Part shown: positions 26,223-39,410 of the stretch, piece by piece
Layout of the letters: the number at the start of each line of letters is the position of its first letter
How positions within the stretch are numbered: the stretch's first letter is position 1
NCBI GenBank assembly: GCA_950073265.1
Contig: CATMPJ010000006.1
Location: 1-39,976, forward strand
Origin: an uncultured bacterium
GTDB lineage: Bacteria > Patescibacteriota > Minisyncoccia > Phycocordibacterales > UBA918
Length of the DNA: 39,976 nt
Direction of reading: 5' to 3'
Notes under the pieces: generated by a model
Told to the model about the DNA's origin: nothing
Databases searched by the model: none
Seen by the model: only the letters and a program-made list of their open reading frames with translations
Position numbers and translations under genes: made by a program

Positions 26223-27308
26223 CTAGTTTTTTGCGGCCGCCTCTTCCTTCAAAGCCTTACGAATGTTTTTCAGGAGCTCATTTTGTAGCTTTTTGTCTTC
26301 ACGTAATGAGGTTCGGGCTGCGTCGTAGCCACGGCCAAGTTTTACCACCGCTGACTCATCTCCACCAGGAGGGAGGTATGAGTATGAGGCACCAGCTTTA
26401 TTGACCATTTTGTACTTTTCACCCAGTGCAAGCAATTCGCCTTCACGTGATATTCCCTCACCATAAATAAGATCAAATTCGGTGGTTCGGAAAGGGGCAG
26501 CGACTTTGTTTTTCACCACCTTCACTCGGTGTCGACCGCCGACCACTTCATCACCTTTTTTGATTTGTGCTATGCGGCGAATGTCGAGTCGTACTGACGT
26601 ATAGAACTTAAGTGCTTTACCACCCGGCGTTGTTTCTGGGTTACCAAACATCACACCTACTTGCATACGGATTTGGTTGATAAAGATAACTACCGTTTTA
26701 CTCTTTGAAACGATACCGGTGAGCTTACGTAACGCTTGGCTCATGAGGCGCGCTTGCTTACCGACATGGTGCGCTCCCATTTCACCTTCAATCTCATCGC
26801 GAGGGGTAAGTGCGGCTACTGAGTCAATAACAATCACATCAAGTTTGCCCGAGCGCACCAGAGACTCGACAATCTCAAGCGCTTGTTCACCGTTGTCTGG
26901 TTGCGAGATGAGAAGTTCGTCAAGCTTTACACCAAGTGCTTTGGCATACTCTGGGTCCATGGCGTGCTCTGCATCAATGAAGGCACAGATACCACCTTCT
27001 TTCTGCGCTTCAGCGACAGCATGAAGGGAAAGGGTAGTTTTGCCCGATGATTCAGGACCATAGATTTCGATGATGCGACCCCGTGGATATCCGCCGATTC
27101 CCAGCGCATCATCAAGCCCAATCGAGCCAGTAGATACTGACGCAATATCGACTTTCTTGGTTTCATCAAGGGTCATGATGGCTTCGTCGCCAAATTTTGT
27201 CTTGATACTGCGCAGAGTTTCTGCAATATCGCTCGCGTCCTTCTTTACTTCAAGATCCGGCTTAGGGACGGCTTTTTTAGTTGTGGTTTTCTTTTTTGCT
27301 GCTGGCAT
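26223..27308 (-). CDS. recA: Recombinase RecA
   Basis: [51 protein letters not shown]. Confidence 0.99.
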
Positions 27309-27712: not shown

Positions 27713-29920
27713 TTAAAAGCGGTCGTCAGTTTCTTCGTTCTCGTTATCGTCGTCAGAGCTCGGTCCACCCGCTAAGACTTCACGAGGTTTTGAACCATCT
27801 TGTGGTCCAATGATGCCGTTTTCCTCCAGAATATCCATCAGGCGAGCGGCTCGTGAATAGCCAATCCGTAGCTTCCGCTGCAAGTAAGAGGTAGAAGCTT
27901 TTCCGGCTTCACGCACCGCCTGCACAGCGTCCTCGTACAATTCATCTTCCTCGTCGCCTCCGCCGCCAATCATGGCATTAAAGACGGAGTCGTTACTGCT
28001 GGTGTCAGCACTGTCAAAATCAATCGTATCGAGCATGTCAGCATCTTGCTTCTTAAGGTAGTTGACCACCTTTTTAATCTCTTCCTCAGAAACGTACGCA
28101 GATTGTAGACGTACCGGTCGTGGACTGTCGGAAGATAGGTACAACATGTCACCAGCCCCCAGTAGTTTTTCAGCTCCCACGGTGTCGAGAATGGTGCGTG
28201 AGTCAATCTGTGAGGCTACCGCCAACGCAACGCGAGTCGGGATGTTGGCTTTAATCGTACCGGTAATAACGTTTACAGACGGCCGTTGGGTCGCCAAGAT
28301 GATATGAATACCAACTGCTCGAGACATCTGCGCAAGTCGTACGATGCATGCTTCAATTTCTCGTGGGTACGCTTGCATCAGGTCGTTAAGCTCATCAAGA
28401 ATGATGACAATGTAGGGAAGGGCTTCCGGCACTTCAGCCTTTTCTTCTTCAGAGCTGCCGGCCGCCTCCCACGCTTCTTTAGCTGGTTGATAGATGTTTT
28501 CGTGGTACGACTTGATGTTTTGTACTTTATTTTGCTCCAAGATGTCGTACCGGCGTTCCATCTCCTTGACTGCCCATGAGAGCGCTTTAAGCGCTTTCTT
28601 GGCCTGCGTAATAACCGGCGTTAAGAGGTGCGGGATGTTGTTGTACAGTGTAAGCTCGACTCGCTTCGGGTCCACCAGGATAAACCGTAGTTGATCCGGT
28701 GAGTTGCGATAGAGAAGAGAGATGATGAGGTTGTGGATGGCTACTGACTTACCAGCACCAGTGGTACCAGCGATTAGTCCGTGCGGCATGCGTGCAATGT
28801 TTGAATAGTGCACGTTTCCGGTCACATCCTTACCAAGCGCCACCATGAGTGGATTTGGTGAATCGGTATATTCTGGTGTCGCTAGAAGAGAGGCAAGGGA
28901 GACAGTCGCCCGTGCTTGGTTTGGCACTTCGATACCCACGAGCGACTTCCCAGGAATCGGTGCTTCGATGCGGATTGACGGTGCTTTAAGTGCCAACTGT
29001 AATTCTTGTTGCAAACCAGCAATGCGTGCAATCCGAACTCCTTGCGCTGGCTTAAGCGCGTAGCGGGTGATTGTCGGTCCGCTTTCAACAGCGTCCATCT
29101 CTACGCTAATACCAAATTCTCGCAAGGTTCGCTTAATGGTATTTGCGTTAGCTTTCACATCACCAATTTGTGCCTTGCCCTTGTCTTTGTTGAGCAGAGA
29201 TAGAGAGGGAGGGATGTAGGTACCGCTGAAATTTTTAATCACGATGTCAGAGGTTTTTGTCTTGCTCACTGAAGCCATTGCTTGCTTTGCTTTGGCTAGG
29301 GCGCCAGTGCTCGCTGGCTCTTCCTCGTCTTCCTCATCTTCGTCAGTGTCTGCTTGCGCTTGAGCGGTGTCGGCTTGCGTTGGGAGCATGAAATCAAAAT
29401 CCTCATCCTCTTCTTCAGTAGCATCTTTTTTATTGAAGAGTCGCGGAAATACGAAGCCGGTGTTAAAGGTCAAAAAGACCGCCACCAAAAAAGTTCCAAA
29501 GATAATAATGCCGGCGACGGTGGCACCAATCAGATACTGGAGTGGCCAGGCCAGCGCCAAGCCAGTGATACCGCCAAGATTTTCTTGATAGAGCTCAAGG
29601 GCAGCGAGTGCACTCACGAAGAGAAGAGCTGCCCCAATAACTTTGGAGGTGCTGATGGTCTGATCCTCAAGTGGATTGAGAAGTACGTATATATATAAGA
29701 GACACGCGACCGGCGCTAACCAAGCGCCACTACCAAACAAAAAGTTGAGTGATACGTTTGTGTATGACCCGAGTGGACCAGCTCCATCGAAGAGGGCAAA
29801 CGTAAAAAAGATTGCCAGGGTACCGATAAGTACGGCAGCTATCGCCTGCTTGGCATGTGGACTGAGATCGCTGAACATTGGCTTTCGTTCAACTTTTTTC
29901 TTTGCTTTCTTTTTCGCCAT
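27713..29920 (-). CDS. ftsK: DNA translocase FtsK
   Basis: TM N-terminus; PHGLIAGTTGAGKSVAIHNLI; LIILDELNDLM-like Walker B; C-terminal gamma wHTH YLQRKLRIGYSRAARLMDILEENGIIGP. Confidence 0.97.
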   Translation of the reverse strand: MAKKKAKKKVERKPMFSDLSPHAKQAIAAVLIGTLAIFFTFALFDGAGPLGSYTNVSLNFLFGSGAWLAPVACLLYIYVLLNPLEDQTISTSKVIGAALLFVSALAALELYQENLGGITGLALAWPLQYLIGATVAGIIIFGTFLVAVFLTFNTGFVFPRLFNKKDATEEEDEDFDFMLPTQADTAQAQADTDEDEEDEEEPASTGALAKAKQAMASVSKTKTSDIVIKNFSGTYIPPSLSLLNKDKGKAQIGDVKANANTIKRTLREFGISVEMDAVESGPTITRYALKPAQGVRIARIAGLQQELQLALKAPSIRIEAPIPGKSLVGIEVPNQARATVSLASLLATPEYTDSPNPLMVALGKDVTGNVHYSNIARMPHGLIAGTTGAGKSVAIHNLIISLLYRNSPDQLRFILVDPKRVELTLYNNIPHLLTPVITQAKKALKALSWAVKEMERRYDILEQNKVQNIKSYHENIYQPAKEAWEAAGSSEEEKAEVPEALPYIVIILDELNDLMQAYPREIEACIVRLAQMSRAVGIHIILATQRPSVNVITGTIKANIPTRVALAVASQIDSRTILDTVGAEKLLGAGDMLYLSSDSPRPVRLQSAYVSEEEIKKVVNYLKKQDADMLDTIDFDSADTSSNDSVFNAMIGGGGDEEDELYEDAVQAVREAGKASTSYLQRKLRIGYSRAARLMDILEENGIIGPQDGSKPREVLAGGPSSDDDNENEETDDRF

Positions 29921-30090
29921 GTGGTGTCTGTTCTTGCTATGAATAAGGTCACTAAATATGGGTACATGATACCACGCTGCTGTTTGAAAATATGGCCTAA
30001 GATAAGCGCAGAAAATGTATCGGACACTTGCATTTTCTATAAAAGTCTCTATAGTGGAAGTAAAGGACCACTGTCTGTCTGAGACAAGCT

Positions 30091-30840
30091 ATGAACGAAA
30101 AAGACACATTTGTATCTATTAAAAGACTCTCATCTGACGAAGGGTACTACGCTAGTGTCTTTAAGAAAATAGAGAAGATAACTAGTGTTTTATCTTATAT
30201 CGTGTCTCATATAAATAAGACACAAAAAGACAGTGTGCATGCAAAACGAGTCCAAGACAAATCACTGATCGTACACGACACCGCGCTTGAGTCTTTAACG
30301 CTTACGCATGAAGACGCCGGCACTGGACTGGTAGAGTTGCAGCACCGATTAGTTTCACTCGAGAGTACGCTGCGTGTCGCGCAGGCAGCCGGTGTGATGT
30401 CTGACGACGTGCTGCAATTGGTTGTCGAACAAATTGATAGCGTCCAGCGCTATATCAATAACCACTACACCAAGAACAATGGGTATTCGCTAGACATCGC
30501 TGCTACTGCACTGCCACCAGTCTCTGGCGGAAGTAATCCAAGTGGGCAGTCGAACAGTACAAAAAAAACGACCCCAGCAGCTCGCCGCAAACGGGTACAG
30601 ATTCCCGCCGGCGACATCAGCTCAGATGCCTATCTGGTTTATAGTCAAATGACCGATAGAGCCGAGCGCATAAAGACAGTCCTTGAAGCCAAACCACAAG
30701 CAACAATAAAAGACATTGCTGAAGTTATAACGGACGTAAGTGAAAAGACTATTCAGAGAGAACTAAACAGTCTCATAGAAAAAGGACAAGTAGTACGAGA
30801 AGGAGAGCGGCGTTGGTCTAAGTACAGTATAAAAAAGTAA
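30091..30840 (+). CDS. Hypothetical protein with C-terminal wHTH-like domain, putative regulator
   Basis: RAERIKTVLEAKPQATIKDIAEVITDVSEKTIQRELNSLIEKGQVVREGERRWSKYSI. Confidence 0.65.
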   Translation: MNEKDTFVSIKRLSSDEGYYASVFKKIEKITSVLSYIVSHINKTQKDSVHAKRVQDKSLIVHDTALESLTLTHEDAGTGLVELQHRLVSLESTLRVAQAAGVMSDDVLQLVVEQIDSVQRYINNHYTKNNGYSLDIAATALPPVSGGSNPSGQSNSTKKTTPAARRKRVQIPAGDISSDAYLVYSQMTDRAERIKTVLEAKPQATIKDIAEVITDVSEKTIQRELNSLIEKGQVVREGERRWSKYSIKK

Positions 30841-30846
30841 GCACGC

Positions 30847-30913
30847 GTGTCTTTTGAAAACTAACTTGTCTGTCTTTTAAAAAAGGTAGACAAGTACACT
30901 CTTCAAAAGACAC
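30847..30913. repeat. Nested inverted repeat
   Basis: GTGTCTTTTGAA (30847-30858)/TTCAAAAGACAC (30902-30913); inner ACTTGTCT (30864-30871)/AGACAAGT (30888-30895). Confidence 0.8.
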
Positions 30914-31159
30914 TCACAACTTCTCTTACGTAGGCGTAGGCTAGTGTGCTCAAATAAGAGCCACCACTGCGTGCCACGCATTTCTTGCGTAACCAAAAAA
31001 AATGTTACGTAATAAGTCAGCCAGTAAGAGGCAAGAAGCAAGGTCGTCTTAATAGGGAGACAGACAAGAAGTATTTCTTTTGTTCATTGCAGTACGTACG
31101 CATACATATATGTATTATCTTTTATAAAAGATTCCGCATATATCCACACGTTAAAAAGT

Positions 31160-31709: not shown

Positions 31710-33572
31710 ATGACTATTGCAAAAGATTTTGCTGCGAAGCTTTCAGTAGCTATCGTAGCAGTTGCTATGGTTTTCTCAGCGTTCGCTTCATCTGCAAGCG
31801 CACAAACTGCTGAAGAACTACAAGCAATGATCAATGATTTGCTCGCGCAAATCGCCAAGCTTGAAGCGACTACAAGCGTTTCAGCTGGTACTGGCTCATG
31901 TGTTTCAATCATGGCCCCTCTTACAATTGGTTCTACTGGTGCTGATGTTACAGCGCTTCAGAACCGCCTTATCGCTTGGGGTGAAGTTATCCCAGCGGGT
32001 GCTACTGGATACTTCGGTACACAGACACAATCTGCTCTTGCTTCATGGCAAGGAAAGAACGCTGTGTCTCCAGCTGTAGGTTACTACGGTCCAATCACTA
32101 AGGCTGCTATGGACGCTAAGTGTTCAGACATGGACGATTCAGATGACGACATGAGCCTTTCAGGTGAAGGTACTCTAGATACTGTAGAAGTTGATGATTC
32201 TGAAGACCCAGAAGAAGGTGAGTCAGACGTAGAAGTTATGGTTGTTACGCTTGAAGCTGACGACGGTGACATCGAAGTTGACCGCATGACCTTCACTGCT
32301 TCTTCAACCGCTGGTTCTGAAACAGATCCGTGGGATGTATTCGAAACTATCTCTCTATGGGTTGATGGCGACATGATCGCTGAATTCGACGCAGAAGACG
32401 AAGACGAATACCTTGACGAAGATACTGGTGAATTCCGATTCAACGATCTTGAACTTATCCTTGAAGAAGGTGAAGAAGTAGAAGTATCTGTTGCTGTATC
32501 TGTACAAAACGGTGTTGATGACGCTGGAACTGCGGCTTGGGATCTTACCCTTGACGAAATCCGCTACTTCGACGCTGATGGTGTAGCTACTGATGAAGAC
32601 GGTCCACTTGGAGAGATTGGTGATGCTATCAACTTCACTATCGAAACAGAAGGTGAAGGTGATGACTTTGACCTTTCAAGTTCATCTGAAGACCCAGACG
32701 CAATGACTATCGCTGTTGAAGAAGATGAAGAAGAAGCTGTAGGCATCTTCGCATTCTCACTTGACGCTGATGGTTCAGATGATGACATCGAAGTAAATGA
32801 ACTTACTCTCGAAGTTACTACTAACATCGACGCTGATGACTTCGTTAACGACTTCTACCTAGAAATCGATGGTGAAGAATTCGACGCCGAGTCTTACACA
32901 GGTGGTACAACTACTACTCTAGTGTTCGATATCGACGGTGACATCACTGTTGATGCAGACGATGAGCTTACAGCAATGCTGTACGCTGAAATCGAAGTTG
33001 ATGAAAACTTCAACACCGCTACTATCCAAGCTGCAACTGTTAGCTACGAAGCAGAAGGTGCTGATGACATTGACGCAAATGACACTGTAACTGGTGAAGA
33101 ACACACAGTTATCTCAACAGGTATCGTTGTTCCACAAGAAGGAGTTTCATTCGATACTTCAACATCTAACGATGGAAACGGTAACGTTATTGGTACTTTC
33201 GACATCGAGTTTGAAGTTACTGCTTTCGAAGGTGACTTCTACATTCGTGACCTAGCTTCAACTACTGCAAACGCTACTACTGAAGGTGTAGAATTCGCAG
33301 TTCTTGACTCACAAGGTAACGAAGTTACAACTGGTGTAACCGCTGTACTATCTACAGACGGTGACGAAGAAAACGGATTCTTCTATGTTGAAGAAGGCGA
33401 AACTGATACATTGACTCTCTCTGTAACAGTAGATCCTTCTGCAACTGGACAGTTCCGTGTAGTACTTGAAGAAGTATGGTACGACGAAGACAAGACTCTT
33501 GGCAGCGCCGATGGTCGAACTCTGACTCCAGCATCAGATTACCGAACTGGTTACGTAACCATCCAAGGTTAA
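31710..33572 (+). CDS. Secreted acidic S-layer-like protein with peptidoglycan-binding domain
   Basis: Signal peptide ending ASSASA; PG_binding_1-like IGSTGADVTALQNRLIAWGEV...GYFGTQTQSALASWQ; long Asp/Glu-rich body. Confidence 0.75.
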   Translation: MTIAKDFAAKLSVAIVAVAMVFSAFASSASAQTAEELQAMINDLLAQIAKLEATTSVSAGTGSCVSIMAPLTIGSTGADVTALQNRLIAWGEVIPAGATGYFGTQTQSALASWQGKNAVSPAVGYYGPITKAAMDAKCSDMDDSDDDMSLSGEGTLDTVEVDDSEDPEEGESDVEVMVVTLEADDGDIEVDRMTFTASSTAGSETDPWDVFETISLWVDGDMIAEFDAEDEDEYLDEDTGEFRFNDLELILEEGEEVEVSVAVSVQNGVDDAGTAAWDLTLDEIRYFDADGVATDEDGPLGEIGDAINFTIETEGEGDDFDLSSSSEDPDAMTIAVEEDEEEAVGIFAFSLDADGSDDDIEVNELTLEVTTNIDADDFVNDFYLEIDGEEFDAESYTGGTTTTLVFDIDGDITVDADDELTAMLYAEIEVDENFNTATIQAATVSYEAEGADDIDANDTVTGEEHTVISTGIVVPQEGVSFDTSTSNDGNGNVIGTFDIEFEVTAFEGDFYIRDLASTTANATTEGVEFAVLDSQGNEVTTGVTAVLSTDGDEENGFFYVEEGETDTLTLSVTVDPSATGQFRVVLEEVWYDEDKTLGSADGRTLTPASDYRTGYVTIQG

Positions 33573-34483: not shown

Positions 34484-34729
34484 ATGAATACAAAATTTAT
34501 TGGTATCAAAGACTTCCGGCAAAATATTGCAGAGTACGCCAAAAAGGCGCAGTCTAGAAAGACGCGGTTTGTTGTCATGAACCGAAATCGTCCTTTGTTT
34601 GAAATTTCGCCATTCGCTGAAGAGGAGAGCCTGGATTCCTTATATGAGACAGTAACTAAAGCAAGAGCAGAAGCCGCGACAGGCAAGGTGTACTCCCACA
34701 AAGAAGTGGGCGAGAGATTGGGTTTATGA
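34484..34729 (+). CDS. Phd/YefM-family antitoxin
   Basis: MNTKFIGIKDFRQNIAEYAKKAQSRKTRFVVMNRNRPLFEISPF. Confidence 0.85.
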   Translation: MNTKFIGIKDFRQNIAEYAKKAQSRKTRFVVMNRNRPLFEISPFAEEESLDSLYETVTKARAEAATGKVYSHKEVGERLGL

Positions 34730-35001
34730 GGCACTTTGAGGTCAGGTACGTAGAACAAGCAATTAAAGATCTCGAGAAGCTTGAAAGAAAAGTAGCCCAA
34801 AGAATTTATAAAAAGATTGATTCCTATGTTTCCTCACCAGACCCTCTAGCCCACGCCAAGTCCTTGTCAGGTAAATTGAAGGGTTTGTACCGATTTAGGG
34901 TCGGAGATTATAGAGTCATTTTTGAGGTTGCTGAAGACGGTTCAATTTCTATACTCACTATATTAGTGGTGGCTCACCGTAAGGATATTTATAAGAAGTA
35001 A
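34726..35001 (+). CDS. RelE/ParE-family toxin
   Basis: VRYVEQAIKDLEKLERKVAQRIYKKI ... SLSGKLKGLYRFRVGDYRVIFEV; ATGA overlap with antitoxin. Confidence 0.9.
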   Translation: MRHFEVRYVEQAIKDLEKLERKVAQRIYKKIDSYVSSPDPLAHAKSLSGKLKGLYRFRVGDYRVIFEVAEDGSISILTILVVAHRKDIYKK

Positions 35002-38201: not shown

Positions 38202-38783
38202 TTAAGGATTTAAATAGCAACCTGCGCCAGTGAAATCTCCAGTGCCGGGATCACGGTCTCCACTATACCTACCACCACTACTTCCGGCACAATATATCTC
38301 ACTCCAGTCTGTACTATATCTTGCTACTATTGAGTAGTGGTTTCCGTAAGGTGCTAAGTTTCTAAACCAGCGTAGTAATAAAAACTGACTACCAACACGG
38401 TCAGTATTATCTCGCATAGAGATACAAATTTCTCGGATTTTTGCTTCGTTTTCAGGTGTTAAACCAGTCAGTATTACTTCCTCGCAGGAGGCGTTTCCGG
38501 TGAATTGATCTGATCTGATCCAGCGCGATGTGTCGGCAGTTGTATAGGTGCTGCCGCCAGTTTGCACTGCGTTAAGCTCTAGTACTTTCGCCATCGAGTC
38601 AACTTGCTGTTTCATTGCGACCTTTCGAGCGGAATCTCGCGCGTCGTTTAGGGCAGCTAGCACAGTGGCTGCTAGAATCCCAATGATTGCAATCACTACT
38701 AAAAGCTCTATTAACGTAAAGCCTGACTCTGGACGGTGGTGGACATCATTTCGGTTTGCCGAGCTTAAGCTTAAGAGGGTCAT
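38202..38783 (-). CDS. Type IV pilin/pseudopilin-like protein
   Basis: SGFTLIELLVVIAIIGILAATVLAALNDARDSARKVAMKQQV prepilin motif. Confidence 0.9.
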   Translation of the reverse strand: MTLLSLSSANRNDVHHRPESGFTLIELLVVIAIIGILAATVLAALNDARDSARKVAMKQQVDSMAKVLELNAVQTGGSTYTTADTSRWIRSDQFTGNASCEEVILTGLTPENEAKIREICISMRDNTDRVGSQFLLLRWFRNLAPYGNHYSIVARYSTDWSEIYCAGSSGGRYSGDRDPGTGDFTGAGCYLNP

Positions 38784-38897
38784 TAATTTCAGTGTACCAC
38801 CGGTGTCAGAATGACTTTGGTGCCTCAGTGATAACTGTTGATAGCATGATTTGAAGATTGTTGAGCATAAACGATGACGGTTAAGGCGTCGCTTATG

Positions 38898-39410
38898 TTA
38901 CGGATTGGCGTAGCAACCTGGCGATTGCCAGCTGCCACCAATGTGTGGATTGCCTTGGCTGGTTCGGCCACTACTGCCCTGACAGTACCATTCAGAACCG
39001 CTATTCAGCACGGTCATGATTGAGTACTCTTGACCAGCACTGGCTGTGCCAACCCAGAGTGCATTAATGGTGTCGAAGGGAATTTGATTGACGATTCCTT
39101 GGCACAGAGCTCGAAAGTCTTCTGCGAAAGTGCCGGTGTAGGTTTCAGTGGCGCAGCTAGGGTTGGTGCCGGCGTTACTAATCCAACCAGTTTGGTGATT
39201 TAAAAACCTGCCGTTTTGTGCTCGTTCTAACTCAAGCGTGGTCGCGTAGTTTCTTACCTGTTGCTTTATAGCGGCGTCTCTAGCGCCGCCCCGCGCGTCA
39301 CTAAGGCTCGCTAATACTACCGCGGACAGGATACCGATAATAGCAATTACGACCAACAACTCAATAAGCGTAAAGCCGGCAGAAGATTGATATGAGAAGC
39401 GGGATTTCAT
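38898..39410 (-). CDS. Type IV pilin/pseudopilin-like protein (paralogue)
   Basis: SAGFTLIELLVVIAIIGILSAVVLASLSDARGGARDAAIKQQV. Confidence 0.9.
   Translation of the reverse strand: MKSRFSYQSSAGFTLIELLVVIAIIGILSAVVLASLSDARGGARDAAIKQQVRNYATTLELERAQNGRFLNHQTGWISNAGTNPSCATETYTGTFAEDFRALCQGIVNQIPFDTINALWVGTASAGQEYSIMTVLNSGSEWYCQGSSGRTSQGNPHIGGSWQSPGCYANP

Follow-up and report, generated by a model that had tools for sequence, protein, structure and literature searches.

A winged-helix protein conserved in an order of uncultured bacteria, and a DNA word found on its own gene and beside DnaA boxes and parS

Our analysis indicates that a winged-helix protein and an asymmetric DNA word, TAAARGACA, have been kept together across an order of uncultured bacteria. 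The word is densest on the gene of the protein itself and recurs elsewhere in the chromosome beside the signals of DnaA and parS. This pattern suggests that the protein may be a regulator of chromosome replication or segregation that has so far escaped notice. The window, i.e. the whole stretch of 39,976 nt that was analysed, is one contig (C6) of a genome of 703,588 bp in 30 contigs, whose close relatives are labelled Kaiserbacteria/Paceibacterota. Its relevant features are given in Table 1.

Table 1. Features of the window around the winged-helix gene
Feature	Position	Strand	Basis or remark
recA	26223..27308	-	Pfam, synteny
ftsK, divergent neighbour; first of ftsK - small gene - recA	27713..29920	-	Pfam, synteny
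AGACA/TGTCT (AARGACA) site field	30072..31066	.	20 sites upstream, in gene and 3'; kept in relatives
Overlapping/inverted pentamers right before ATG, TGTCTGTCTGAGACA	30072..30086	.	Sequence
Gene of winged-helix protein, 249 aa	30091..30840	+	Conserved ORF
N-terminal four-helix bundle, residues 17-125, S23/Avd-like	30139..30465	+	AlphaFold model, Foldseek
C-terminal winged helix, residues 176-247, best-conserved part	30616..30831	+	AlphaFold model, conservation
Nested inverted repeat after stop, outward and inward sites	30847..30913	.	Sequence
DnaA-box-like ATATCCACA, one mismatch	31140..31148	+	About 300 nt 3' of stop; spot DnaA-box-enriched in relatives
Exported protein with PG-binding domain	31710..33572	+	Pfam, synteny; downstream in 65/66 order loci

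The initial annotation had estimated about 20 AGACA/TGTCT pentamers in the field by eye. The exact count is indeed 20 starts, above every one of 2,000 first-order Markov simulations of this interval (3.2 ± 1.7 pentamers, maximum 9). AGACA is the commonest 5-mer of the field, at eight times its rate in the window, where both orientations together average 2.5 per kb. The figure of roughly 6 per kb proposed for neighbouring ftsK was too high: 1-kb bins over this gene hold one or two pentamers and the bin 29001-30000 holds five. Furthermore, the inverted repeats that had been named are all found, being TGTCTGAGACA at 30076-30086, GTGTCT...AGACAC at 30202-30223 and a nested repeat 3' of the stop codon. 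The latter has perfect 12-bp arms (30847-30858 and 30902-30913) separated by 43 nt and carries sites at 30848, 30871 and 30906.

The conserved motif is longer than the pentamer. Its consensus is T-A-A-A-R-G-A-C-A (R = A or G), commonly preceded by TA, and it is not palindromic. Since the motif is asymmetric, many of the seeming palindromes are paired asymmetric sites, so that the inverted pairing first described is present but many of its palindromes are only apparent. Over 66 loci of the order, AARGACA reaches 6.9 per kb in the field versus 0.38 per kb in the flanks, and nearly every locus of the genus is enriched in sites. Hence, the field accompanies the gene across the order, as conservation of the pattern in relatives would have it. 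Across 35 loci, the density is 8-13 per kb at -250..+250 and +500..+750 and 3 per kb at +750..+1000, with a gap at +250..+500 and background values outside the field. The positions of the sites turn over among relatives, and all reading frames are used. When synonymous codons were shuffled within each gene, 116 ± 10 in-gene sites were expected versus 266 observed, AGACA and TGTCT being each increased about 2.3-2.4 fold, with the strands alike. Turnover, use of all frames and a choice of synonymous codons that makes sites on both strands therefore indicate selection acting on the DNA. The spacing of neighbouring sites peaks near 12, 24 and 35 nt, which hints at helical phasing, although inherited positions may be partly responsible for these peaks.

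A similar density throughout the genome had been put forward as what would refute the field, but the counts do not overturn it: the 8-mer AAAAGACA occurs 65 times in the whole genome (50 for the reversed control), six of these occurrences lying in the 1-kb field. TAAARGACA occurs 22 times versus 15 for its control and is not strongly over-represented genome-wide. Against these controls, neither sequence displays a genome-wide excess of the DUS, Chi or KOPS kind.

The winged-helix gene was detected in 36/38 genomes of the genus, 255/297 of the order and 148/165 sampled genera, all of these genomes being MAGs of which some are incomplete; this makes it look like part of the core gene set of the order. 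Although it had been described as an orphan, it stands in a synteny (ftsK, the gene, the PG-binding-protein gene) that spans the order, ftsK being divergent from it at 62/66 loci. The genus keeps the row recA - small gene - ftsK, then the divergent winged-helix gene and the gene of the exported PG-binding protein, which may be a major surface protein. The gap between these last two genes is unusually long. Farther along the window are a ParE-type toxin gene (34726-35001, Pfam) and two prepilin-like reading frames (38202-39410) with the N-terminal motif GFTLIELLVV. The winged-helix protein is unmatched by the named families of Pfam or NCBIfam, no curated family covers it, and its single sub-threshold Pfam match is to bAvd. 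A phage or plasmid origin was rejected, no homologue being found in plasmid or phage collections.

Two independent predictions of the protein agree on a four-helix bundle at the N terminus and a winged helix at the C terminus, joined by a disordered linker. The bundle can be superposed on 2gsc and 4dwl as an S23/Avd four-helix bundle; it matches the S23-family structures 2gsc and 2rld and the phage Avd 4dwl with target-normalised TM of 0.70-0.85. This likeness is only at the level of the fold, since the Foldseek E-values are just 0.002-0.1. Whereas the N-terminal fold is shared with these proteins, here the bundle is fused to a winged helix, and no diversity-generating retroelement context was seen. 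Avd is a pentamer, and the structure 2gsc lists chains A-E; we propose with moderate confidence that the winged-helix protein oligomerises. The winged helix itself resembles domains of the ArsR, MecI and AspA types (Foldseek).

Away from the gene, TAAARGACA sites (W sites) were counted as pairs when two lay within 32 nt. There are 24 pairs versus one for the reversed control in the genus, and 727 versus 11 (control summed from the table) over the 297 genomes of the order. They cluster at a small number of loci, namely the cca-exoIII gap, the vicinity of yraN, the interior of umuC and of cca, the region upstream of a tRNA-synthetase gene and the field. In the cca-exoIII gap, where the two genes converge, many families have two W sites in the same orientation 11-12 nt apart, a DnaA box after about 11 nt and a W site in the opposite orientation. 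Allowing one mismatch, a DnaA box (exact in 11 cases) lies within 40 nt of 21/35 tight pairs versus 1.9% of random segments. A non-coding RNA was considered for the cca-exoIII gap and rejected, as neither Rfam families nor tRNAs were found in it. Tandem DnaA boxes adjoin the W sites upstream of yraN, and parS is beside or inside yraN. For instance, in the window genome, C1:47165-47340 holds three W sites with parS-like sites, directly followed by TTATCCCCATATCCACAAGTTTTCCACA, three tandem near-boxes. Thus, at both the cca-exoIII and yraN modules, DnaA boxes and partner sites occur in a fixed arrangement outside dnaA. Moreover, 45 exact DnaA boxes lie 0-400 nt 3' of the winged-helix gene over the 66 order loci, and none inside it.

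Other clusters recur at definite places. Three or four tandem W sites occupy a recurring place in the coding sequence of cca across families (L308:4271-4307, L311:2930-3003, L305:3912-3958, L317:4136-4177). W pairs lie 150-190 nt inside umuC, which encodes a Y-family polymerase, in L204, L206, L211, L212 and L213; in the window genome the pair is at C2:47519-47572, in the gene row umuD - 400-aa gene - umuC. In some families, about four W sites are found in the divergent gap upstream of the tRNA-synthetase gene (L301:3427-3534, L303:2732-2834, L315:2377-2487, L254, L274).

The stretch with yraN, cca and exoIII is probably an origin/centromere region. For the complete genome G039, the sign of the GC skew switches at about 84-100 kb, i.e. 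at the locus of yraN, parS and the DnaA boxes, dnaA being at 51 kb. In G272, the skew minimum is at dnaA and not at yraN; in G008, the skew gives an ambiguous signal from 92 to 139 kb, with its cumulative minimum near dnaA. The DnaA-box modules may consequently not be oriC, and the region may be oriC proper or a datA-like satellite. In the literature searched, there was no account of the origins of these bacteria beyond the position of dnaA. As for the field, which had been suspected to sit near the replication origin or terminus, GC skew in G039 and G142 places it at neither. It lies about 94-181 kb from parS (G008, G211, G272, G039), some 14-18% of rounded genome lengths, a steady distance that general synteny could explain. 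In the complete relative G142, contig C1 reads N at about 200-256 kb, where GC skew changes sign, and dnaA was not found in its readable sequence.

It is very probable that the winged-helix protein binds the TAAARGACA word, judging from the distribution and conservation of the two. Two families in which the gene is absent from all 14 sampled genomes (f25 and f86) have one W pair versus a mean of 2.7 in gene-bearing genomes (overall association of gene and pair across genomes, Fisher p = 4e-4, kinship ignored). These families being nearly devoid of pairs, the winged helix being better conserved than the rest of the protein and the word being conserved along with it, the protein is the likely binder. 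However, a W pair is present in 25 of the 42 genomes in which the gene was scored as absent; these are incomplete MAGs or contain missed homologues. The idea that the encoded protein binds a self-regulating operator array or a parS/centromere-like cluster is therefore partly supported: the field is kept with the gene, selection acts on the DNA and pairs are missing in families without the protein, but the origin/centromere-like cluster is another locus, near DnaA boxes and parS, and self-regulation is deduced indirectly.

We slightly favour the view that the protein is an oligomeric DNA-binding protein of the origin/centromere region that would work with DnaA, its self-array serving for autoregulation and possibly titration. 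Our confidence in the components differs: a role in replication or segregation and autorepression by the self-array are each proposed with moderate confidence, titration by the self-array with weak confidence. The asymmetric word would be read by the C-terminal winged helix, while the S23/Avd-like bundle would assemble several winged-helix heads on flexible linkers and so hold many irregularly spaced sites together; the irregular spacing of the field would be tolerated by such a multivalent binder with flexible arms. At the yraN-upstream and cca-exoIII modules, the protein would sit among DnaA boxes, near parS, and probably modulate how DnaA acts or how the origin region is organised, the strict spacing of the modules suggesting a defined complex with DnaA. 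On its own gene, the densely packed sites, most of them weaker, would repress synthesis and soak up surplus protein, forming a sink about 90-180 kb from the region of parS and the DnaA boxes. Since sites lie over the promoter region, repression may concern the gene itself and perhaps also the divergent ftsK-recA operon, and the many sites inside the gene and past its end point to titration or bridging. A more specific form of this proposal is doubtful: the Avd-like/winged-helix oligomer would gate DnaA at bipartite origin modules (yraN and cca-exoIII) as an order-wide replication control, with its own gene as a titration sink whose duplication by the fork resets initiation. A purely origin-linked role does not account for the clusters in umuC, in cca and before the tRNA-synthetase gene.

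Possible, although rather unlikely, is a second centromere or nucleoid-organising system, in which the protein would bridge the gene array, the parS region and the other clusters and condense or position the chromosome without DnaA, in the manner of RacA or pSK1 Par. The multivalent architecture, the clusters near parS, the divergent ftsK and the plasmid centromere binder AspA among the fold matches of the winged helix are all consistent with it; the fixed distances between W sites and DnaA boxes at cca-exoIII and the ParB and parS that these genomes already have are not. We regard as improbable an ordinary autorepressor that would also act on the ftsK-recA operon, have an operator of unusual size and find minor targets in the other clusters: its sites do cover the gene together with the divergent promoter region, but others lie past the stop codon, deep in the gene or between convergent gene ends that are promoter-free.

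A DNA-damage regulator of the SOS type, replacing or complementing LexA, is very improbable. The neighbouring recA and ftsK and the sites near exoIII, yraN and umuC first suggest a repair regulon, a reading that was dropped because the exoIII sites are 3' sites shared with cca, located among DnaA boxes where the ends of the two genes converge, while those of umuC fall within the gene; neither has the promoter position of LexA-like operators at repair genes. In addition, the protein lacks a sensor domain and has no match to the LexA S24 autoprotease domain. LexA as the binder is unlikely too, since the field persists in genomes without convincing S24 proteins, such as G048. Finally, a coding or compositional artefact or a motif acting at the RNA level is scarcely conceivable: some sites coincide with conserved TIKDI codons, and sites in the gene and upstream of it are biased to the coding strand, but the synonymous shuffles and reversed-pattern controls rule out the former, the nearly equal enrichment in both orientations rules out the latter, and clusters also occur in non-coding DNA.

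The winged-helix protein and its word are distinct from datA/DARS2, Rok-DnaA and ParB/parS. Single-protein plasmid partition systems such as pSK1 Par, and RacA, combine an HTH with a helical part, repeats beside their own gene and autoregulation, whereas here an apparent chromosomal core gene encodes an N-terminal S23/Avd-like bundle. Like ParB/parS and Noc, the system has site clusters near the origin, but ParB_N (PF02195) is absent from the protein, the word differs from the TGTTNCACGTGNAACA of parS, and the same genomes have a separate ParB and a separate parS. In Escherichia coli, datA and DARS, with IHF and Fis, interleave DnaA boxes with partner-protein sites outside the origin (PMC4585315, PMC4245941). 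The partner sites described here similarly lie among DnaA boxes at a roughly constant distance from the origin; unlike those of datA/DARS, they would serve a winged-helix protein, consist of one specific word and form their largest array on its own gene. A datA/DARS-like locus would also change the nucleotide state of DnaA; the likeness described here is one of arrangement. In Bacillus subtilis, Rok binds over long stretches of A+T-rich DNA, and DnaA in Rok-DnaA complexes is not itself bound to DNA (PMC6936261). Rok also joins a winged-helix DNA binder to an oligomerisation part and has a link with DnaA, but instead of wide A+T-rich binding we find a specific asymmetric word in few clusters and real DnaA boxes. 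Its domain order is reversed relative to that of the winged-helix protein.

Replication control is little studied in these mostly uncultured, streamlined bacteria. One protein and one word, kept in 148/165 genera and located near DnaA boxes and parS, provide a handle on where the origin lies and how initiation is set. If the proposed reset by a self-sink is true, it would be a natural version of the autorepressor/titration model, and the self-array can be viewed as a natural test case for this long-debated titration model.
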